64,000 nucleotides of DNA, from positions 379,501 through 443,500 of the forward strand of contig JAWPHD010000127.1 in NCBI GenBank assembly GCA_037043455.1, written 5' to 3'. The stretch's first letter is position 1. Every line of letters begins with the position of its first letter. The notes below the pieces were generated by a model, which did no database searches, was not told where the DNA came from, and saw nothing but the letters and a program-made list of their open reading frames with translations. A program made the position numbers and the translations under genes. Shown in pieces: positions 4,900 to 41,230 of the stretch. This DNA comes from Cyrtodaria siliqua. Its lineage: Eukaryota; Mollusca; Bivalvia; Adapedonta; Hiatellidae.

Positions 4900-5460
4900 T
4901 ATTCTGAGATTTTGGCTCTGACAGAATATAAATCAGTCTCTAGACTTTTGCACTTTCTTTTGTAAGTGTGTATTGAGACCAGATATGCTACTGTGAATTC
5001 TACTCATATCTTTTTCAATTTCAATGTATTCCACTACTCTCTCATTATTTGCTTCCATTTCATTATTTGTAAAAGCATGTTCATATTCCTCCATGTTTTA
5101 AACTATAATTCTACTGCCAATCAGCATATACTAAAATGTTTTAATTTAAAAGAAACTGAACTGATTTTCTTCAATAGATTTCCTCCATCCAGTTTATTTA
5201 TATTCATATTTTTATTCTTTATTTTTCAGGAGACCAGAGCAGTTCAGGATAAAACTCAACGAGAATTGAACTGATGCAATTCTATGTATCTTTATTTGAA
5301 TAAAATATTGACAATGTTTGTCAATTTTATTTTAAATAAGTTCCCTTTATTCTGGCTTTACCAGAATGTTCAATAGAACTATTTTCTAAGATAAATATAT
5401 TACGATACACTGTACAGTATGACTAGCGTCTAGACTAGTGAAACGGCGAGTAGCCTACAT
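4900..5460. other. AT-rich flank of the Gypsy relic
   Basis: No recognised gene. It may include decayed gag or 5' LTR sequence of the minus-strand Gypsy element. A short inverted repeat TTGACAATGTTTGTCAA lies near 5307-5323. The 102-aa open frame at 4966-5274 has no recognisable family residues and is probably accidental. Confidence 0.35.
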
Positions 5461-5466
5461 AACAGC

Positions 5467-5590
5467 AGATATAAAAACCGAACAGGAAAAGTAGCATTCA
5501 AGGACGACAGTCAACCACAAACACATAAAGACAACTATATATAAAGATGAATAAAAGACAAGAAAAGACATCACAAACACACGACGACAT
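5467..5590 (-). mobile_element. Naiad-like 3'UTR end fragment
   Basis: Minus-strand copy of the last ~120 bp of the family UTR: ATATAAAAACCGAACAGG, then AAAAGTAGCATTCAAGGACG and ACAGTCAACCACAAACACA, which is the reverse complement of the 3' end seen at 20870-20930. Only the terminal part is present. Confidence 0.65.
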
Positions 5591-5871
5591 TACCTTTTTT
5601 TGGGAGGAACACTTAATGATTAAATTCCAGTCTCCCCTACTGAGTGTAGTGACGTAATATATGTTACCAAATATGTTGATACATGAAATGTATCCAATTC
5701 CCCCGATCGATCAGAAACAACACACGTTTCGGAAAACATTCAAATCACATTAGAATGTGCAGTTTCTGATGTTTCGGAAGAACCATCTGCTATATATACT
5801 TGTAATGCTATTGACTCTCCCGATCGTTCAGAACCAACACGTGTTTCGAAAGACCGCTATCCATACAAAGT

Positions 5872-6535
5872 GTGTTTTCTGATAGATTGGAAGCTTCTAA
5901 TACATTGTCTCGTACTTCTGACAAAACAAAGGCTTCTAACTTTGCAAATAATAATAGAATGGGTAGTAGAAAAACTATGAGCAAACAAAAAAATAAACAT
6001 TCCGATGGAAAGGGTCATGTTAACCTTTCGGAAATTATATCCACTATTGGGACCCAAAGTTATCCAAGTCAAAACTGTATACAGGTTCGAGTCACCGCAC
6101 GTGAGGCTGATTGTGATACACGTGCCCAGTATGATTATGAGGAAGATTATAGCGTATACGTGCGTAAACGAACAAAACGTTTCAACGTAGGCGGATATAA
6201 AAACACTATAAATCAAGATTGCACGATATGTGTCTCGTCGGGGTCCTAAAGTAACTAAAGTAAATTTATTTCTATCGCGCCGGTTCCCTGATGAGGTTGT
6301 TGTACAACTTAATGCTGAGGCAAACGATGACTGTACCTTATTGAAAGATACCGTTATTTGGCCCCGCCATGTTGGCTGCAAACCCTAGGTATCCAGAAAT
6401 GAGAAACATAAATTGGGCGATCGGCAGCATGGGTCCTGGTATAACCCTAATTCGCAGCCATATAGTTGGCACAATGATAGTAGATACACTTGTACACGAC
6501 AATTACTACCGGCATTTAGAAATGGATTAGTGTAG
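5872..6535 (+). pseudogene. LINE ORF1, nucleic-acid-binding-like protein
   Basis: Open from 5872 to 6249 and, after a frameshift, on to about 6535. The N-terminal part is Ser/Lys/Asn-rich (RKTMSKQKNKHSDGKGHVNL). The C-terminal part has RKRTKRFNVGGYKNTI, then RRGPKVTKVNLFLSRRFPDEVVVQ, DDCTLLKDT, and FWPRHVGC-like WPRHVGCKP. This GG...RRG.KV...FWP..V.C.PW layout is the RRM-like module in ORF1 of molluscan and other CR1/L2-like LINEs (family knowledge). It would coat the element RNA. The opposite-strand 174-aa frame is a shadow. Confidence 0.65.
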
Positions 6536-6599
6536 CCTTTACGTTGTACATAAAACATCGAAATAAAATATGCTGTATTCTAAACAATTAAACTTTTTA

Positions 6600-7310
6600 T
6601 CCTGGGACGTAACGGGTCTGATATCAAGTAGTACTTACCTTTGGAACTTACTTAAGACCCAGCTATAGACTTATGTGGGCTGTCCGAGCACTGGTTTTAC
6701 AGTCATAACTTGCATTTCATAGATCTAATAGACAGCAGTTATGAAGCTCATGCTGTTTCTGATTTTAGTTTAAATATTCCAAGTAAAAGACGGGTTGGAA
6801 AAGGCGGTGTTGCAATTATGTGGCATGTCAAAGATGACCAATTTATTACGCCATTAAGCATTGATGGTGACAGAATAGTTGGTGTGCAATTTCAAGCTGC
6901 CAAAGATCAATATATTTTTGTCTTTCAAGTGTACCTTCCGTGTCGAAACCATTCGATTAGGGCACATAAAGACTATATTGATAAATTATAAAACGGTATG
7001 GTAATATTTATAGGGTACTTTAATGCAAAAGGCCAGAGCGATAGCATTCTTGAAAGCAGAGATCTATATTTTAAGCAATTATTGACAGATACAAATTGTA
7101 TCACTATCAATACTTTAGATACATGTAAAGGCGCCAAAACATCTTTTGTGTCATAGGATGAAAGTTGCGAATAGTTGATTGATTATATTTTAATTCCTAT
7201 TGAACGCGAGTATACCGTGTCGTACTGCGAAATTGCAGATGATGACTGCTTAAATATGTCCAGGCATAGACCAATAACATGTACTTTAAACGTGCCAGTT
7301 TTACCCTTAT
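6600..7310 (+). pseudogene. LINE AP-like endonuclease
   Basis: Across several frames the endonuclease blocks appear in order: LCGLSEHW (catalytic Glu), RVGKGGVAIMWH, VFQVYLPCRN, GYFNAKGQSD (normally GDFNA; the catalytic Asp is Tyr here), LIDYILIP and SRHRPITC (normally SDHRP; Asp is Arg here). This enzyme nicks target DNA to prime reverse transcription. Loss of two catalytic residues plus stops near 6989 and 7155 make it inactive. The longest open stretch, 6710-6991, covers the first half of the domain. Confidence 0.85.
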
Positions 7311-8289: not shown

Positions 8290-9562
8290 TTTTACTAAAG
8301 AAATATAAAAAGATCGGACAGGGAAAGTAGCATTTAAGGAGGACAGTCAACCACAAAACACAGAAACAAACACGCAAACAGACAAACAAGAAGGCAAAAA
8401 TTATAATACAAGCAAACGACACCACAAACACAAAAGTGTTGACAATAGGGCTACCGCCTTGGAACGGTCAGTGGCAAAGTAGGCCACTGGGGGTTTAAAC
8501 CGGTTCTAAGGTGCACCAAACCTCACACTTACCCTACTGCCATCCTATTAAAACAGGACAGTGTAAATAAAGAAATCCCTGCCATGATCTAATCTCTAAC
8601 CAACAAGGCCGCATCAATAGGCAATATAAGTAAAACACAAATATGCTCGTGTAAATATAATACAAAATAAAATAGCCTAGAAAGCCGCAATGAAGGTACT
8701 CAGTGACTAGGCAGAAGCCAGAGCAACAAGAGAATAAACCATTAAGGTCTCACTACAGAATTACCTCCCTTGGCTATGACGGTAGGAAGATTCCTACACC
8801 GTAAACAACTAGGGCTGTGTTAATCGGTTTGCTCTCAACTTGGAAATGTGCAATCATTCTCTTATTTCTGCCTTTAGGTGACAAGATTTGAACATGTTCA
8901 TGACTTCTGCCAAGTTTGGATGCCACTGGGTGATTTTCGAGGAAGATATAATAATTTGCAAATGGGTAGGAATGCAGTTGAATTATCAGTGAAATAGAGC
9001 TAGTTTTGAGGGGTGCTGAAAAAGACTGGAATTTAAAAAAAATTAATCTGGTCAACTTTTGATTTTTTGTGGATATTCTGAGCATCAGAGGAAGGTTTGC
9101 AGATTGAGGGGAGATTTAAAGACCAATGGACATTTTATAGTATGTTTGCAGTGGTCCATAAGTGACCGTTTCTACATATATTATATAGTGTTGATTAATT
9201 CACTAGTGAGACGAAATTTATGGTAACGGTAACCCTGATTGAGTAGCTTTTTAGTGATACAAAGATTACGAATATTAAAGTCATCAACTCGAGTACAAGC
9301 TCTTGAAAAACGAATAAGTTGAGACACATACACCCCATAAGAAGTTGCTCGGGGAACATCGCCATCCAAGTGGGGGTAAGTAACTATGTCAAAATTAAAA
9401 TCATCTCTCTTGTCATATATTTTGCTAATTATTTCCATTTTCAATCGAGAGATCTAAATCAAGAAAAGAAGCGTTATTATCAGATATATTAGCTTTGTTA
9501 AGTTGAAGTTCTTTAGGATAAATATTATTAACCATATTTGGAAAGAAAGTTTCCGTTACTCC
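8290..9562 (-). mobile_element. Naiad-like copy C (minus), RT end plus 3'UTR
   Basis: Read from right to left: RT coding sequence at 9562-9185 (MVNNIYPKELQLNK, FDIVTYPHLDGD and VPRATSYGVYVSQLIRFSRA are equivalent to 17465-17700 of copy B), then about 430 bp of unrelated DNA (8750-9180), then the complete 3'UTR at about 8745-8296 including the reverse complement of CCACTGACCGTTCCAAGGCG. It abuts copy A head to head at about 9562/9563. The copy lacks endonuclease and the RT palm. Confidence 0.8.
8750..9180. other. Unidentified 430-bp insert in copy C
   Basis: This block separates the RT and UTR portions of copy C and has no partner elsewhere in the window. The minus strand holds a 103-aa open frame (8774-9085) without recognisable motifs. 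No terminal repeats or target duplication could be made out, so it may be an insertion or filler DNA at a rearrangement. Confidence 0.4.
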
Positions 9563-9569
9563 TCTACGA

Positions 9570-10075
9570 TCACCTGTTTTGAGGAAATACCATATAAAGT
9601 CTCCTTTTAGAAATCATTTAGTTCATTCACGGCGCAGGCTGTTTCCCTCTATTAATAAGTGCAATACTAAGAGGTGCAGTTGTTGCAATTATTTCTCTTG
9701 CAAGTCCACCATTAAATCAGCTGTTAATGGTAGATTGTTTAATGTATGTCTAGCTTCAAATGTTGATTGACGTACTTCTCACGTCATTTATGTTCTGACT
9801 TGAAATGCACCAAGTTGCGGTATACAATATGTTGGACAAACAGGTCGATTCTTAAAAGTTAAAAAATTACTTGTACCAACACTTTCGTCAGTCAGGTCAT
9901 AATTTTAATAACGTAACTGTTCAACCGGTTGAATATATATTTTTTGATAATGATGTTACTAAAAGCTTTAACATAAAAGCTAGACATATTGCAGAACTTA
10001 AGTGGATAGAAAACTTACAGACACCTTATCCACTTGGCCTTAATGACAATATTTATCAAGAAGGAAATATTTCTA
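9570..10075 (+). pseudogene. GIY-YIG endonuclease domain (N-terminal, Naiad type)
   Basis: Readable as KCNTKRCSCCNYFSCKST, STIKSAVNGRLFN, then an in-frame UGA, RTSHVIYVLT, a second in-frame UGA, NAPSCGIQYVGQTGRFLK, and after a ~20-residue deletion and frameshift LYQHFRQSGHNF and ARHIAELKWIENLQTPYPLG. VIYVL is the GIY strand, QYVGQTGR the YIG strand with its Arg, and the terminal E of AELKWI is the expected metal ligand. H-x5-H (HFRQSGH) completes the CCHH zinc-binding set typical of Penelope endonucleases, with UGA at both first positions. The domain would nick chromosomal DNA for target-primed reverse transcription. The only start in frame with 9579 is a TTG, so the true N-terminus is lost. 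Confidence 0.85.
9768..9803 (+). other. Two in-frame UGA codons at the CCHH cysteine positions (candidate Sec)
   Basis: UGA at 9768-9770 and 9801-9803 enclose the ten residues RTSHVIYVLT. In the canonical Penelope-like endonuclease at 40435-41085 the corresponding stretch is C-KSTNVVYAVY-C, also with ten residues between two Cys. The spacing is therefore identical and both UGAs replace Cys. Recoding as selenocysteine is inferred; two independent nonsense mutations at exactly these sites is the alternative. Confidence 0.65.
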
Positions 10076-10139
10076 AAGATCCTAATATTGACCTAATATT
10101 TTTTCTATATTTTCTATTCGTAAGCGTAAATCTAGGTCT

Positions 10140-12007
10140 CATGGTATTAGGCGTAATGGTAACATCAAACGTAAATCGCGTGTAATTATTTCTGTCGCTG
10201 ATTTACATACTATTTTTAAACAGTCTGGAAAGCACTCTATGCTTTCACGGCTTACCTCTTTGTCCATTTCATCACTAAAGTTGATTGACGAGGAAGCCGA
10301 CAAAATTTTCATTCGTACACATTCCTTGTATAACACTGCTTCATAGTTCAAAGCTATACACAACATGTTCTCCGACCCCATATCGACAAGGAGTCTGATC
10401 ACGTCAGGCATTTTCTAAAACTACTATATATTAATAAAGGTATTGATTTCATTGACATGCCTAGTATTTTTCGAGATACTCATGTAGTTGATTCTATCCC
10501 AAATTTTTCAAAAATTCCGAAAGTCCTGTTATTTGTTATAAGTATAAACAGCCTATTAGAAAAATTACTTTCAACTAAAACAAAATAGTTTCTGACCTTG
10601 ATATAGAACATAATACTCCTAAGGAATGTGAATGCAACACATCAAAATTGTGCTTTGCTTCAGCAGGTCATGTCATCACTGGTAATTTTGATATTATTGA
10701 TAAACGTATTCGGCATTTTATCATACCTTGTCCTTTGTTTTAGTTCCTGCAGATAAAGCAGCTAATAATGTAATTATTGTTTGACGGCTACATTACGTCA
10801 ATGTTTTATCTCTGGAACTCGGCAGCACCAATTCGTATACTCCAGTTAATTCTAATGAGGCTGATGTTGTTTCCGCACATATCACTCGGTGCACCAGTTT
10901 CAAGGCTGGTGTAAACGATAAGCAAAATAAACTGCCTACCATGTACTGGATTCCTAAATTACATAAAAATCCATATAAGGCTCGCTTTATTTCTAATTCT
11001 AGTGTTTGCACCACAACAAACATCTCCAAACTTTTAACTTTTTGTCTTACTGCCATTAAAGATCACGTTAAACTATATTGTGATAAAACTTATGAAAACT
11101 CTGGGATTAATTTATTTTGGTCTATAAAAAATTCAGGAGACGTTCTGGATAAAATTTTCAATAAAGGTCAAGTTTCATCAATTAGCACTTATGACTTCTC
11201 TACACTATATACAACCTTACCACATCACCTAATTAAAGACAAGCTAATTTCTCTTATTCAAAAAACATTCGCTAGAGAAAATACTACATTTTTGGCATGT
11301 AATAATATTAAAGCGTTTTTTACTAACGGCAGTTTAGACAATTATACTATATTGACTTGCTATGAAGTTAGTGAAGCACTCATCTTCCTATTAGATAATA
11401 TTTTCGTCAGGTATGGTACCACCGTTTATAGACAAATTGTTGGTATCACTATGGGTACGAACTGTGCACCACTTGTCGCAGATCTGTTTTTATTTTGCTA
11501 TGAAAGAGATTTCATGTTGAGTCTTTCACCAGATACCCAGGCAGATGTTATTGAAGCTTTTAATGACACCTCTCTGATGGGGATGTTCCCCGAGCAACTT
11601 CTTATGGGGTGTATCTGTCTCAGCTTATTCGTTTTTCTAGAGCTTGTACTCGAGTTGAGGACTTTAATATTCGTAATCTTTGTATAACTAAAAAGTTACT
11701 CAGTCAGGGTTACCGTTACCATAAACTTCGTAAAACCTTTGCAAAATTTTATTATCGTAACCCTGATCTTCTTTTTAAATATAAGAGTAATTTAAGGACT
11801 CTTCTGCGACAAGGACTATCACAACCTGACTTCTATGGTGATGTGATTTATAAACTTCGTAAAAGTCTTGGTCATGATCACTTTCATACTATCTTTGTTA
11901 AACTTGCATGCTTGGTGGTGGACCCTTTTAGAGTTCGCCACTATGCTTTCCTCTTTACTTGTACGATGACCGGCCAGGCTATGGACCCTATGATGACGCC
12001 TACCTAA
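10140..12007 (+). pseudogene. Naiad-like reverse transcriptase, copy A
   Basis: Visible in order: RRNGNIKRKSRVIISVADLH, KECECNTSKLCFASAGHVIT (the CxC linker), VPADKAANNVIIV-UGA-RLHYV, MYWIPKLHKNPYKARFISNS, STYDFSTLYTTLPHHL (first catalytic Asp), RYGTTVYRQIVGITMGTNCA, PLVADLFLFCYERDFMLSLS. The YLDD box is deleted between 11571 and 11575; the frame then continues with FNIRNLCITKKLLSQGYRYH and ends ...TMTGQAMDPMMTPT. The open part 10941-11687 (248 aa) is the best preserved RT in the window. Penelope RTs are related to telomerase RT. It is inactive because of the deletions and frameshifts. Confidence 0.9.
10782..10784 (+). other. In-frame UGA in the RT fingers, shared with copy B
   Basis: The codon after ADKAANNVIIV is UGA, followed by RLHYVNVLS. 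Copy B has UGA at the same codon (16701-16703, ADKAAYNVIIV-UGA-RLHNV). In related Naiads I recall this residue as Cys. A shared UGA in two otherwise diverged copies argues for a source element that carried it. Confidence 0.65.
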
Positions 12008-12514
12008 AGACCATTGGGACGGTGGCGTTTGATGTTTGTCCATGATCTTTCTTGTCGTGCCTTTAATGATGTATTCTCTTACTGCTCTGGCTTCTGCCAA
12101 GTCACTGAGTACCTTCATTGTGGCTTTCTAGGTTATTGTTTTTTTGTATTATATTTACACGAGCATATTTGTGTTTTACTTATATTGCCTATTGATGCTG
12201 CCTTGTTGGTTAGAGATTAGATCATGGCGGGGATTTCTTTATTTACACTGTCCTGTTTTAATGGGATGACAGTAGAGTAAGTCTGAGGTTTGGTGCACCC
12301 TAGAACCGGTTTAAACCCCCAGTGACCTACTTTGCAACTGACCGTTCCAAGGCGGTAGCCCTATTGTCAACACTTTTGTGTTTGTGATGTCGTTTGCATT
12401 TAATATTGCCTTTGCCTTCTTGTTTGTCAGTTTGCGTGTTTGTTTCTGTGTTTTGTGGATGACTGTCCTCCTTGAATGCTACTTTCCCTGTCCGATCTTT
12501 TTGTATTTCTTTGT
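12008..12514 (+). mobile_element. Naiad-like 3'UTR of copy A
   Basis: About 500 bp of non-coding family sequence after the RT stop, used as the reference for the many UTR fragments here. Landmarks are CTCTGGCTTCTGCCAAGTCA, ATGGCGGGGATTTCTTTATT, TTTACACTGTCCTGTTTTA, a candidate stem around 12266-12304, CCGTTCCAAGGCGGTAGCC and the terminal block CTTGAATGCTACTTTCCCTG ending in a T-rich stretch. The 3' end is joined directly to a minus-strand RT piece at 12515. Confidence 0.8.
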
Positions 12515-15675: not shown

Positions 15676-15776
15676 TCCCATATATAATCCACCAATCTGT
15701 ATATTGCCAAATAATGATGCCTAGTTTGTTAGAAGATATATTCTGGCGGGAATTCTTTAATTTACACTGTCCTAAT

Positions 15777-18072
15777 AAAGATCCTAATATTGACATTTTT
15801 TCTATATTTTCTTTTCCAACACGTAACTCTGGGTCTCGTGGTCGTAGGCGTAATGGTAACATCAAACGTAAATTGCGAGTAATTATTCCAGTCGCTGATT
15901 TACATACTATTTTTAAAAAGTCTGGAAAGCACTCTATGCTTTCACGGCTTACCACTCTGTGCATTTCTTCACTTAAGTTGATCGACGAGGAAGCAGATAA
16001 AATATTCATTTGTACAGATCGCTTGTATAACACTGCTTCCATAATTCAAAGCTACACACAACATGTTCTCCGACCCTATATTGACAAGGAGTCTGATCAC
16101 GTCAGGCATTTTCTAAAAATACTATATCTTAATAAAGGTATTGATTTCATTGACATGCCTAGTATTTTTCGAGATAATCATGTAGTTGATTCTATACCTA
16201 AATATTAAAAAAAACATGAAAGTCCTGTAATTTGTTATAAAAATATAAAAAAATCTATTAGAAATATTATTTTCAACTACAACAAAATAGTTTCTGCCCT
16301 TGATATAGTAAATAACACTCCTAAGGAATGTGAATGTCAAAACATATCAACATTTTGCTATGCTCCAGCAGGTCATGTCATCACTGCTAATTTTGATAGT
16401 GTTGATAAACGTATTCGGCATCTATATTCGAAAGGTCCTAAGTATAGATTACCTTCAGCTATCGATTTTAATGCCTGTTGTGCTCAGATCGCCCAATCCA
16501 TTGAGGATTGTAGTATAAAATGGTGTCGTAAATTTTTTAAAATTATAGATACACGTATTCACTTTTATAGTGCTAACACCTCTTTATTTTCTCCGAGACC
16601 TAGGTTTTCCTTTCGTAATTTAAAATCGGGAATTCAAGAATTTCATAATAAATTTGTTTTAGTTCCTGCTGATAAAGCAGCTTATAATGTAATTATCGTT
16701 TGACGCCTACATAACGTCAATGTTTTATCTCTGGAACTCGGTAGCACTGATTAATACTCCAGTTCATTCTACTGAGGATGATGTTGTTTCCACACATATC
16801 ACTCGGTGCACTACTTTCAAGGCAGTGGTAGACGAAAAACAGAACAAACTGCCAACTATGTACTGTATTCCTAACTTACATAAAAATCCGTATACGGTCC
16901 GTTTTATTTCGACTTCTAGTGCCTGCATCACCACAAGCATCTCCAAACTTTTAACTTCTTGTCTTACTGCTTTTAAAGATCACGTTAAACATTAAAATTT
17001 GCAATAAACGTCAAGTTCCATCTATTAGCACTTATGATTTATCTACACTATATACAACCTTACCACATCACCCTATCAAAGACTAGCTTATTGCTCTTAT
17101 TCAAAAAAAACTTTCGCTGGAGAAAATACTACACTTTTGACCTGTAATAATATTAAAGCGTTTTGACTAACGGCAGTTTAGACAATTACACTATATTGAC
17201 TTGCCAAGAAGTTTGTGAAGCACTCATCTTCCTATTAAATAATATTTTCGTCAGGTATGGAACGACCGTTTATAGACAAATTATTGGTATCCCTATGGGT
17301 ACGAACTGTGCACCCCTTGTTGCAGATTTGTTTTTATATTGCTATGAAAGTGATTTCATGTTGAGTCTTTCACCAGATACACAGGAAGATGTTATTGAGG
17401 CCTTTAATGACACCTCTCGGTATCTGGGTGACATATTAATCATTGACAACCCTTTCTTTTCTACTATGGTTAATAATATATACCCTAAAGAACTTCAGCT
17501 TAACAAAGTTTATATTTCTGATACTAACACTTCTTTTCTTGATTTACATCTCTCCATTGAAAATGGTGAAATAATTAGCAAAATATATGACAAGAGACAT
17601 GATTTTAATTTTGATATTGTTAATTATCCCCATTTAGATGGGTATGTTCGCCGAGCAACTTCTTATGGGGTCTATGTCTCAACTTATTCGTTTTTCAAGA
17701 ACTTTTCTCGAAGTCTTTAATATTCATAATCTTTGTATAACTAAAAAGCTACTCCATCAGGGTTACCATTACCATAAACTTCGTAACACCTTTGCAAAAT
17801 TGTATTATCGTAACCCTGATCTTATTTCCAAATATAAAAGTAATTTACAAACTCTTCTGCGACAAGGACCATCACAACCTGACTTGTATGGCGACGTGAT
17901 CTGCAAACATCGTAAGATCCTTGGTCATGATCACTTTCATACTATCTCTGTTAAACTTGTTAAACTGTTTATCAAAAGAGGTTATGACCTTATCATTTTG
18001 CAACGCACTGCATGCTTGGGGTTGGACCCATTTACAGTTCGCACTATGCTTCCTTCTTTGATTGTGCGATGA
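15777..18072 (+). pseudogene. Naiad-like reverse transcriptase, copy B
   Basis: In order: KDPNIDIFSIFS, GRRRNGNIKRKLRVIIPVAD, LTTLCISSLKLIDEEADKIF, HVRHFLKILYLNKGIDFIDM, KECECQNIS (CxC), FCYAPAGHVITANFDSVDKR, KYRLPSAIDFNACCAQIAQS, VPADKAAYNVIIV-UGA-RLH, then a frame-shifted palm with a ~120-bp deletion near 16995, and RQIIGIPMGTNCAPLVADLF. The catalytic box reads RYLGDILIID, so YLDD has become YLGD. The end is FIKRGYDLIILQRTACLGLD then PFTVRTMLPSLIVR. Relative to copy A it keeps the 10715-type and 11571-type segments. Inactive by stops, deletion and the lost catalytic Asp. Confidence 0.9.
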
Positions 18073-19887: not shown

Positions 19888-20406
19888 CCGGACAGGCCGT
19901 GGACAATATCATGACGTCTACATAAAGCCCAAATGGACGGTGACGTTTGATGTTTGTCTGAAGTATTGTCTTAATAATAATCATGATAATAATAATAATA
20001 ATAATAACTTTATTTCAAGAAGGTAACATATTAAGACATAGCACTTACAACAAAAATGCCCTCAACACTCCCTCTTGTTACTCTGGCTTCTGCCAAGTCA
20101 CTGAGTACCTTCTTTGTGGCTTTCTAGGCTATTGTTTTTCTTTTTGTATTTGTATATACACGAGAATCTTTGTATTTTACTTATATTGCCTATTAATGTT
20201 GCCTTGTTGGTTAGAGAATAGTTCATGGCGGGGATTTCTTTATTTACACTGTCCCGTTTTATTGGGTTGACAGTAGGGTAAGTTTGAGATTTGGTGCTCC
20301 CTAGAACCTGGTTTAAACCCCAGCGGCCTTTTTTGTCACTGACCGTTACAAGGCGGTAGCCCTATTGTCAACCCTTTTGTGTTTGTGATGTCTTATTTGG
20401 CCTTTT
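19888..20406 (+). mobile_element. Naiad-like 3'UTR of copy B, proximal part
   Basis: Resumes the family UTR after the solo LTR. At about 19965-20075 there is an extra ATAATAATAATAATAATA tract followed by CTTTATTTCAAGAAGGTAAC, which copies A and D lack; it resembles an antisense LINE tail. The UTR ends at TATTTGGCCTTTT, which is duplicated at 20821. Confidence 0.75.
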
Positions 20407-32777: not shown

Positions 32778-33875
32778 GGGCCAGAACGATATCCGGTACC
32801 ATTTTGGTGGGCAAATTCTTACTATTGTCAATTTGGGGGCATTTTTATGGAGGTAAGGAAAATGCTTTATAGCAATTTCAAAGTTACAGCTTTACATGAT
32901 TTTAATGCGTTTTTAAACATAACCCCCTTGAAAAAAATGAAAATCACAGAATGTCATAAAATGTCACTCAATTTTTTTTTATTTTTATATTATGTATTTT
33001 CACTATTATTATTATGTAAAACAGTTAACAGCCCCGACATATGACAAGTACAATAAGTTTAAATGACCTTGTTTTCTTCTTTTAAGCCAAAAATCTCAAT
33101 TTTACATGTAAATTTACCCCATCCACTTTTAGAGATTTTATACTTAACTTACAGATTTCCTGTTTGTTACATAAGCAATACACGTATGTGTTTTTTTGAG
33201 ACAATAAAGCATATACTAAAAGAAAATAACAAGAATTCAAGTGTTTGTAATACATTTTTTAAGTAAGCAATGGATAAAAGAACCCATTGAATTCTAAAAT
33301 GAGTGCAATATTAAGAGATATTTTGGCGTTTATAAGCACATTACTTTGATATATATCACACTTGAAGTATTTTTTCTTATCTCAGTGATGAAATGTTCTA
33401 ACAACAGATAAAAGTATGTTCAGTTTATTAAATACTGTTCTATTTTAGGGTCAATTAATGACTTTTCTTTGCTAAATTGGCATATCAAATTGCCCCACCC
33501 ACTCAGGATTAAGATCAAAAACTATTCAAATGGACAAAGATGAAAATTGGTACCAGTTTTATTGTCAAATGGAAACTATTAACATGTTCTGAGTAACGGT
33601 TCAGGTAAAAAATGGAAATGAAAAATGCATGACAATAAATTCTTAATTTCATTACTTAGAGGGATTATAGCTTTGCTTGATTTCTAATGTGTTTTATACA
33701 GTGTACGTGTACAGGGGTAAAATACCGATTTTCCTCAAAAAGTATATCTTCATTTATTAGCAACGGTCAACATGACTAGAGTTTAAGTGTAAAATGTCAG
33801 ATTTCTTACAATTTCTTTATAAATAGTATTGTGGAAATTAAAAACCTTTGAAAATAAAAGGAATACTTTAATAAG
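32778..33875 (+). repeat. Left arm of the large inverted repeat
   Basis: About 1.1 kb. Mostly AT-rich and non-coding. Several CCCCACCCACT-type motifs occur in and around both arms. Identity to the right arm falls off abruptly after GGAATACTTTAATAA. Confidence 0.8.
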
Positions 33876-38502: not shown

Positions 38503-39606
38503 TTAAAGTATTCCTTTTATTTTCACAGGTTCTTAATTTCCACAATACTATTTATAAAGAAATTGTAAGAAATCTGACATTTTACACTTAAACTCGAGTC
38601 ATATATTCACAGTTGCTTATAAATGAAGAAATAATTTTTGAGAAAAGTTGGTATTTTACCCCTATACATGTACACTTATAAAACACATTTGAAATCAAGT
38701 AAAGCTGTAATACCACTAAGTAATGAAATTTAGAATGTATTGTCATGCATTTTTAATTTCCATTTACCTGAACATTTACTCAGAACATGATAATAGTTTC
38801 CATTTGACACTAAAACTGGTATCAATGTTTACCTTTGTCCGTTTGAATAGTTTTTGATCTTAATCCTAAGTGGGTGGGGCAATTTGATATGCAAATTTAA
38901 CAAAGAAAAGTCATTAATTGACCATAAAACAGAACAGTATTTAATAAACTGAACATACTTTTATCTGTTGTTAGAACATTTCATCACGGAGATACGAAAA
39001 AATACTACAATTGTGATATATGTCAAAGTAATATCTTATAAATGCCAAAATATCACTTAATATTGCACCCATTTTAGAATTCAATGGGTTCTTTTATCCA
39101 TCACTTACTTAAAAAATGTATTACAAACACTTGAATTTTTGTTATTTTCTTTTAGTATATATTTTATTGTCTCAAAATAACACATATGTGTATTGCTTAT
39201 GTAACAAACAGAAAATCTGTAAGTTAAGTATAAAGTCTCTAAAAGTGTGTGGGGTAAATTTACATGTAAAATTAAAATTTTTGGCTGAAAAGAAGAAAAC
39301 AAGGTCATTTAAACTGATTGTACTTGTCATATTTCGGGGCTGTTAACTGTTTTACATAATTATTAATAGTGAAAATACAGAAATTATTAAATATAACTTT
39401 TTGAGTCACATTTTATGACATTCTGTGATTTTCATTTTTTTCAAGGGGGTTATGTTTAAAAACGCATTAAAAATCATGTAAAGCTGTAACTTTGAAATTG
39501 CTATAATGCATTTTCCTTACCTCCATAAAATTGCCCCCAAATTGACAATAGTAAGAATTTGCCCACCAAAATGGTACCGGATTGTCAAATTTTGGGGTTC
39601 TGGCCC
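38503..39606 (-). repeat. Right arm of the large inverted repeat
   Basis: Reverse complement of 32778-33875 with small indels. Its outer end has an extra TTTGGGG segment before GTTCTGGCCC that the left arm lacks. Confidence 0.8.
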
Positions 39607-40434: not shown

Positions 40435-41230
40435 CTATTCCTTCAGTTTGACGCCATATGGCCGGTATGTTCGCAGCTTACTCTTCCATAACTGCTCAAT
40501 GGTTTTCCGGTGTTGCTCGTCCCCATTTAGTTTCTCCAAACCCATCACTCTAAAATCACTGACACTGTGTCCATCTGTATAAAAGTGTGCTGCCACCGGA
40601 TCGTTGTACTGTGTCCGTATTCGGGATAGGTTCAGCAAATGTCTCTGATACAGGGTATCGCCCGTCACTCCCACATAGATGTACCTCTGGCAACACCTAC
40701 AGTACACTGCATACACTACATTGGTTGATTTGCAGGTGATCAAGTTCCTTACTTTGTATGTATTCCCGTTAACATCGGTAAACGTGTCAGACTCCATTAT
40801 GTACGGGCATATGCAACATCGCTTGGCTCCACTTGGGCGGCATGTGTTGGACTCCTTAAAGAACTGCCTACTGTGCTTCTTGTGTACCAGTATGTCTTGC
40901 AAGTTACTGTCCCTTCGAAACACTATTATCGGTGGTTCCGGGAAGATCGCTTTCATTGTGTTGGAAGTATGAAGCGTAGGTAGGTGTTTTCGCAGAATTC
41001 GACCTATATTTGGTAATGCTCTAGAGAACGTCAGGACTAGGGGGATTCTCTTGGTTTCTTTTTTAGCGCTGTTGTACTGTAACAATTTATCCGTTGTTTT
41101 GCATCTACTTTCTTTAATTCTGTCTCAACAAACTTCCCATCATACCCTCTCCGTTGCAACTGTGTCTTAATGTCCGCTCTGTGCTTTTGACAGCATATAC
41201 ATACGGAAATAATAAAATAAATCGTCAATC
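40435..41230 (-). pseudogene. Canonical Penelope-like element, C-terminal GIY-YIG endonuclease
   Basis: Minus frame 41085-40435 (216 aa) encodes the post-RT region (PLVLTFSRALPNIGRILRKH, FPEPPIIVFRRDSNLQDILV), a Cys-rich segment (RPSGAKRCCICPYI) and the GIY-YIG nuclease: ITCKSTNVVYAVYC (GIY strand), QRYIYVGVTGDTLYQR (YIG strand), HFYTDGH (H-x5-H), RKTIEQLWKSKL (terminal Glu) and a stop after GVKLKE. CCHH is intact. Upstream in another frame are QRRGYDGKFVETELKK residues of the RT thumb, then the element is truncated. Here the nuclease follows the RT, unlike in the Naiad-like copies. The open frame suggests a younger copy. Confidence 0.9.

Follow-up and report, generated by a model that had tools for sequence, protein, structure and literature searches.

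An apparent selenoprotein retrotransposon in the bivalve Cyrtodaria siliqua: Naiad-type Penelope-like elements with conserved in-frame UGA codons and a SECIS overlapping the end of the reading frame

The window, that is, the whole stretch of 64,000 nucleotides analysed here (Cyrtodaria siliqua, contig JAWPHD010000127.1, positions 379,501 to 443,500), holds two broken copies of a Penelope-like element, called copy A and copy B, which were located by tblastn with the reading frame of their family, called family 1, as the query. Copy A, at 9540..12007 (+), comprises an N-terminal endonuclease part, a CxC linker and a reverse transcriptase (RT), with matches running from query residues 86-193 to 936-1095, and direct reading of the sequence gives UAA at 12005-12007 as its terminator. 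Copy B, at 15774..18042 (+; tblastn and alignment), is a related copy with ca 89% DNA identity to copy A and is without the endonuclease part. Both copies are interrupted by further stops, and some of their codons are missing or shifted. Upstream of copy A, at 8297..9547 (-), fragments of the element's 3' part lie in inverted orientation, recognised from inverted repeats and minus-strand tblastn; the matches lie at 8297-8670 and 9205-9547, and the stretch between them gave no match.

The translation of copy A from position 9600 includes VCLASNVD*RTSHVIYVLT*NAPSCGIQYVGQTGRFLK, and the UGA codons at 9768..9770 (+) and 9801..9803 (+), called sites 1 and 2, lie in one frame and 11 codons apart around RTSHVIYVLT, as the initial annotation had claimed. 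They correspond to columns 162 and 173 of the family alignment, where relatives have Cys. Site 3, at 10782..10784 (+), is found in the RT region (column 599), 3' of ADKAANNVIIV. The earlier claim that this codon is common to copy B also holds, in that tblastn places the UGA at 16701..16703 (+) in the same codon column.

Elsewhere in the window, a 216-codon open stretch at 40435-41085 (-) encodes a different Penelope-like endonuclease, in which both sites are occupied by Cys; the Cys-x10-Cys that had been noticed here is indeed read on the minus strand as C-KSTNVVYAVY-C. A Pfam scan of this endonuclease gave no GIY-YIG match. There is also an inverted repeat pair, 33008-33609 and 38763-39363, whose arms are 93-94% complementary and ca 5.2-5.7 kb apart, which suggests another element or a composite.

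The assembly that was searched (2.88 Gb in 26,948 contigs) contains many close copies of the element. A codon alignment of 20 fetched genomic copies (L009-L028) together with copies A and B shows TGA in 21 of 21 informative rows at column 162, in 21 of 21 at column 173 and in 22 of 22 at column 599, that is, in all 64 informative codons of the three columns. In the remaining reading frame, the 22 rows have 39 stops in ca 21,800 codons (5 TGA, 25 TAA and 9 TAG), and among the ca 1,095 codon columns there is, upstream of the UAA terminator, no majority stop except at the three UGA columns. At the terminator itself, 17 of the 18 rows have TAA. If UGA codons mutated like the average codon, and with the copies assumed to be independent, the probability of 0 changes in 64 would be ca 0.014. 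The conservation of these codons is demonstrated, and the pattern is far beyond chance. At each of the three sites, the codon typical of the family is thus UGA; neither a consensus of TGC/TGT, CGA or TGG nor UGA confined to a few decayed copies was seen in the aligned copies.

Genome-wide counts made by eye, which give the number of TGA codons and not their positions, point in the same direction for the endonuclease half. Among 150 matches scored out of 6,993 candidates, 130 have two TGA codons, 8 have one, 11 have three and 1 has none, so that 9 of the 150 have fewer than two and the UGA has been lost in some copies. When the relative P0125 is used as the query, the number of TGA is two in 77 of the 83 matches listed, three in 5 and four in 1, likewise counted by eye and as numbers only. 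One long match (G000:C7281:20737-23487) has an open frame of 1,099 codons with two TGA only, and here one UGA, probably the third, seems to have been swapped for a sense codon.

The initial annotation regarded the element as a fossil. This is correct for copies A and B, which are broken, but not for the family as a whole. With P0043, a relative with Cys at the UGA sites, as the query, 48 long matches out of 65,161 candidates were scored by eye, and 12 of them have exactly three TGA and zero TAA or TAG. Three of the 12 were fetched (L040-L042), and in each the frame runs without a break from column 1 or 2 to column 1,094 or 1,095; the only stops inside it are those at columns 162, 173 and 599. 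Family 1 is therefore not only a decayed fossil. None of the 48 scored matches (of the 65,161) is without TGA, and no Cys-only Naiad family was met among them.

Purifying selection across the whole frame is demonstrated by the variants that are common to at least three copies. These were handled as independent and assumed to come mostly from active lineages, and their ratio of non-synonymous to synonymous changes (N/S) is 0.60, vs 2.87 expected under neutrality (p 6e-11). The shared variants before UGA 1 comprise 2 non-synonymous and 7 synonymous ones (p 0.0025), those between UGA 2 and UGA 3 comprise 11 and 13 (p 0.0022), and those past UGA 3 comprise 14 and 24 (p 1.3e-6). Since selection is seen before, between and past the UGA codons, ribosomes seem to have crossed all three of them during the active period of the family. 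When each distinct variant is counted once, most of them being rare, N/S is 2.5 vs 2.9, that is, near neutral, as expected from later decay.

A protein search gave 325 relatives, of which 120 were listed and used for the residue tallies. At column 162, Cys is found in 36 of 36 listed relatives, and at column 173 in 37 of 38, the exception being one Ile at the edge of the alignment. Of the 116 relatives aligned at column 599, 103 have Cys and 13 have Trp. The initial annotation expected Cys in sister families, and this homology of the UGA sites to Cys positions is demonstrated. A second protein search, with the endonuclease part as the query, gave one relative only, P0125, which has W at both endonuclease Cys columns and at the CxC Cys.

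Both halves of the family frame itself gave no Pfam match up to E 1, and the domain assignment comes from the relatives. All six relatives scanned have GIY-YIG near the N-terminus, five of them at or above the Pfam cut-off, and five of the six have RVT_1 in the C-terminal half with E <= 0.01, one above the cut-off and four below. These relatives align with the family frame over most of its length. In the CxC motif, column 462 is TGT in 21 of 22 family 1 matches; among the listed relatives, 82 of 90 have Cys in this column, the others having W (7) or V (1), and 89 of 90 have Cys in column 464. For the AlphaFold2 model of P0043 (pLDDT 84), the best 14 PDB matches are all telomerase RTs, with a best E of 3.7e-10 and low TM-scores of 0.25-0.34 by query. 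Repeated 3' ends are found in L011, L019, L023, L024, L026 and L027, and together with the inverted fragments upstream of copy A they show that the tandem or inverted partial copies of Naiads (the pseudo-LTR arrangement) are seen in this family as well. An N-terminal GIY-YIG endonuclease, a CxC linker and a telomerase-like RT make up what we take to be the Naiad architecture. By homology, the element would have the endonuclease N-terminal to the RT in one reading frame, and by way of the model of P0043 the RT is predicted to be telomerase-related.

In a tree of the RT columns, whose branching order is not firm (support along the path to the query 0.21 to 1.0), family 1 groups with relatives that have W at column 599 or that start just past this column, and there is a nested group with Cys at column 599. 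This group (P0004, P0009-P0011, P0014 and others) lies among the UGA-like relatives, and it could possibly represent a reversal from Sec to Cys, at this one site only. Several of its members have predicted proteins that start past column 462.

At the 3' end of copy A there is a candidate SECIS, at 11982..12042 (+), that spans the end of the reading frame (Rfam RF00031, SECIS_1, 32.7 bits, E 0.013). The score is below the gathering score of 35 bits; a scan of the window at the gathering threshold gave no match, and the hit appears in E-value mode only, where it is the better of two Rfam matches with E up to 1 in the 64 kb and the only one with E < 0.1. The UAA terminator, 12005..12007 (+), falls within the conserved AAA segment of the apical loop. 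A diverged SECIS-like relic lies at 19900..19960 (+), at the 3' end of a related copy (alignment; RF00031 18.6 bits, E 0.77, a weak match), and according to the pair counts one of its helix II pairs has changed from C-G to U-A.

SECIS_1 is found in 18 of the 20 fetched loci of family 1, at or above the gathering score in 12 of them and with up to 39.4 bits. L009, L011 (scanned over bases 5000-6600 only), L014, L021, L022 and L025 score below it (29.5-32.9 bits), the Rfam scan gave no SECIS_1 match in L018 and L020, and the match for L012 sits in an adjacent tandem unit. Folded alone, the SECIS of L013 adopts the expected shape, at -20.9 kcal/mol with a z of -2.76. The reading frame ends within the SECIS as ATG ATG ACG CCT ACC TAA AG, with the core AUGA inside the last codons. 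In the three open copies mentioned above, L040-L042 (G000 contigs C550, C7445 and C1622), the first of these Met codons is GTG, which turns the core from AUGA into GUGA; these copies form a subgroup in which the first core base differs, and L040 and L042 have further alterations of the core. The initial annotation had pointed to the 3'UTR; a SECIS is present, but as predicted from the sequence it is not wholly in the 3'UTR and overlaps the end of the reading frame, which is an atypical location. A C-terminal MMxxT is found at the end of 19 of the 120 listed relatives, and going by this ending the arrangement of a SECIS over the stop may be old.

The search with P0043 also revealed a second family, with four or five TGA per copy, which was not singled out among the matches listed when P0125 was the query. 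The sample consists of four copies (L036-L039) that are 94-98% identical to each other and have 58-62% protein identity to family 1. TGA is found in 19 of the 20 codons at columns 162, 173, 462, 599 and 686, the one exception being AGA at column 173 of L039. All five columns are UGA or Cys in family 1: column 462 is the first Cys of the CxC motif, and column 686 is less strict, with Cys in 51 of 119 listed relatives. The four copies also have one to three TAA each, in scattered columns. SECIS_1 scores are 36.5 bits in L036, 36.5 in L038 and 32.1 in L037, and the Rfam scan reported none in L039.

When the SECIS of copy A is set against that of L036, 16 of the 18 pairs are kept in both elements; the changes are double in four cases and single in two. 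The SECIS is demonstrated by its sequence and by a fold with compensatory changes. In the second family, the codon at the end of the reading frame is UGA and coincides with the AUGA core. We have taken this codon as a probable terminator, given that the frame of family 1 closes at nearly the same position. A UGA inside a SECIS would be expected to terminate, being too close to the SECIS under the spacing rule.

A tRNA-Sec model gave seven matches over the cut-off in the genome, the best with 79.7 bits. The model alone is not specific, because it also finds matches in each of the 14 control genomes, five of which have matches that exceed the cut-off. Of the seven matches in the host, ARAGORN calls five as tRNA-Sec, with TCA as the anticodon, which demonstrates that the host has tRNA-Sec and answers the expectation that its gene should be found. 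The five genes are near-identical (L029-L033, on G000 contigs C8885, C19544, C22663, C8930 and C12464). Five is more than the one or two usually found in animals, and the number may include haplotype duplication in the assembly. Among the matches to GPx that cover the first part of the domain, 10 of 11 have exactly one TGA. Going by the tRNA-Sec genes and by GPx with TGA, the host would possess the machinery for Sec decoding.

Several readings of the UGA codons have to be weighed. They could be ordinary decay mutations, or the result of passive amplification of a founder copy that carried stops, and the damage in copies A and B and the 39 scattered stops of the 22 rows show that decay does occur. 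However, decay stops are scattered and mostly TAA or TAG, whereas the three columns are TGA in every informative codon and fall on Cys columns of the relatives. Neither the purifying selection downstream of all three UGAs, nor a family at ca 60% amino acid identity with the same three UGA sites and two more, nor the presence of a SECIS agrees with decay, to which we assign next to no probability; random decay of a Cys-type element is rejected on the codon tallies and the selection test. That the UGAs are recoded as another amino acid such as Trp, through readthrough or a reassigned code, would fit the relatives with W at column 599, which are known as protein sequences and not as DNA. But W also occurs on the CxC Cys column 462 and, in P0125, at both endonuclease Cys columns, a pattern consistent with gene callers having used table 4 for TGA, and column 462 is indeed TGA in L036-L039 of the sister family. 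On these grounds we reject reassignment to Trp, and as other relatives have Cys and a SECIS is present, recoding of this general kind is very improbable.

The UGAs might instead be true stops, with a separate endonuclease and an RT made by reinitiation, and with a hairpin that is coincidental or serves reverse transcription. The proteins P0024, P0027 and P0029, which begin just past column 599, would be in line with this. On the other hand, UGA 1 and UGA 2 are 11 codons apart within one domain that is continuous in the Cys relatives, the frame is constrained throughout, and the hairpin matches a SECIS in sequence as well as in structure, the two families differing by compensatory changes. This reading is as improbable as that of Trp.

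The explanation that we favour, with a probability of roughly 95%, is that family 1 is a Naiad-type Penelope-like element that encodes a single-ORF selenoprotein, in which the three UGA codons would be read as Sec and one SECIS at the 3' end would decode all of them. The suggestion of the initial annotation that the source element used UGA as Sec is in this way supported by the family codon, the Cys relatives, the SECIS and the tRNA-Sec genes. From these sequence data, we infer actual insertion of Sec into the protein of the element. The reading frame, which counts ca 1,075 codons if the likely start Met is used, would give one selenoprotein with Sec in place of the two paired cysteines next to the core of the GIY-YIG endonuclease (UGA 1 and 2) and in the RT region (UGA 3), and selenium would most likely stand in for the thiolate of cysteines with a structural or metal-binding role. 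The single SECIS over the last codons and the UAA would recruit the SECIS-binding protein, eEFSec and tRNA-Sec of the host and, by the ordinary eukaryotic Sec pathway, most likely serve all three (or five) UGAs, each more than 1 kb upstream. The second family in the same genome would use the same decoding with five UGAs.

A further proposal, which we regard as tentative and somewhat less probable than its opposite, is that the SECIS is built into the stop. The same RNA would then supply the coding end (MMxPT) and the terminator, by way of the UAA in the apical-loop segment in family 1 and of the UGA in the core in the second family. Terminating ribosomes would unfold the SECIS, Sec decoding would become physically tied to termination, and the coupling could make the retrotransposon self-limiting.

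Naiad elements reportedly encode selenoproteins with several Sec residues in clams and spiders. Those elements and the present one have in common an N-terminal GIY-YIG endonuclease, a CxC linker, a TERT-like RT, several Sec residues (predicted in the present element) and a very high copy number. Cys-type Naiad-like proteins (P0043, P0055, P0068 and others) have the same domain order and 35-36% blastp identity over most of the reading frame; P0043, P0055 and P0068 differ in having Cys at all three sites and a C-terminal end that is not MMxxT. The mRNA of fowlpox GPx4 is said to have its SECIS within the coding sequence. There, as here, the SECIS overlaps translated sequence, but in fowlpox it lies within a viral reading frame, while the present one straddles the terminator of a retrotransposon ORF. 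The fowlpox case is described as an exception, cellular SECIS elements being in the 3'UTR (PMC8310308, PMC7409322), and one of these sources also lists a SECIS predicted inside coding sequence of a ciliate (PMC7409322). A selenoprotein retrotransposon was not found in the titles and abstract openings searched, a result that applies to those texts and not to the literature as a whole. With selenoprotein Naiads already reported, the SECIS that overlaps the stop is most likely the new part.

If these readings are correct, gene annotation is affected, as gene callers appear to truncate these reading frames at UGA or to read the codon as Trp. A SECIS over a stop codon is relevant to the question of how one RNA accommodates both this element and a ribosome that terminates. 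The copies of the element amount to many natural experiments with Sec and Cys codons, in two families with three and five UGAs in one genome. Finally, an abundant parasite gene seems here to depend on the selenium translation machinery of its host, and its activity could track selenium status.
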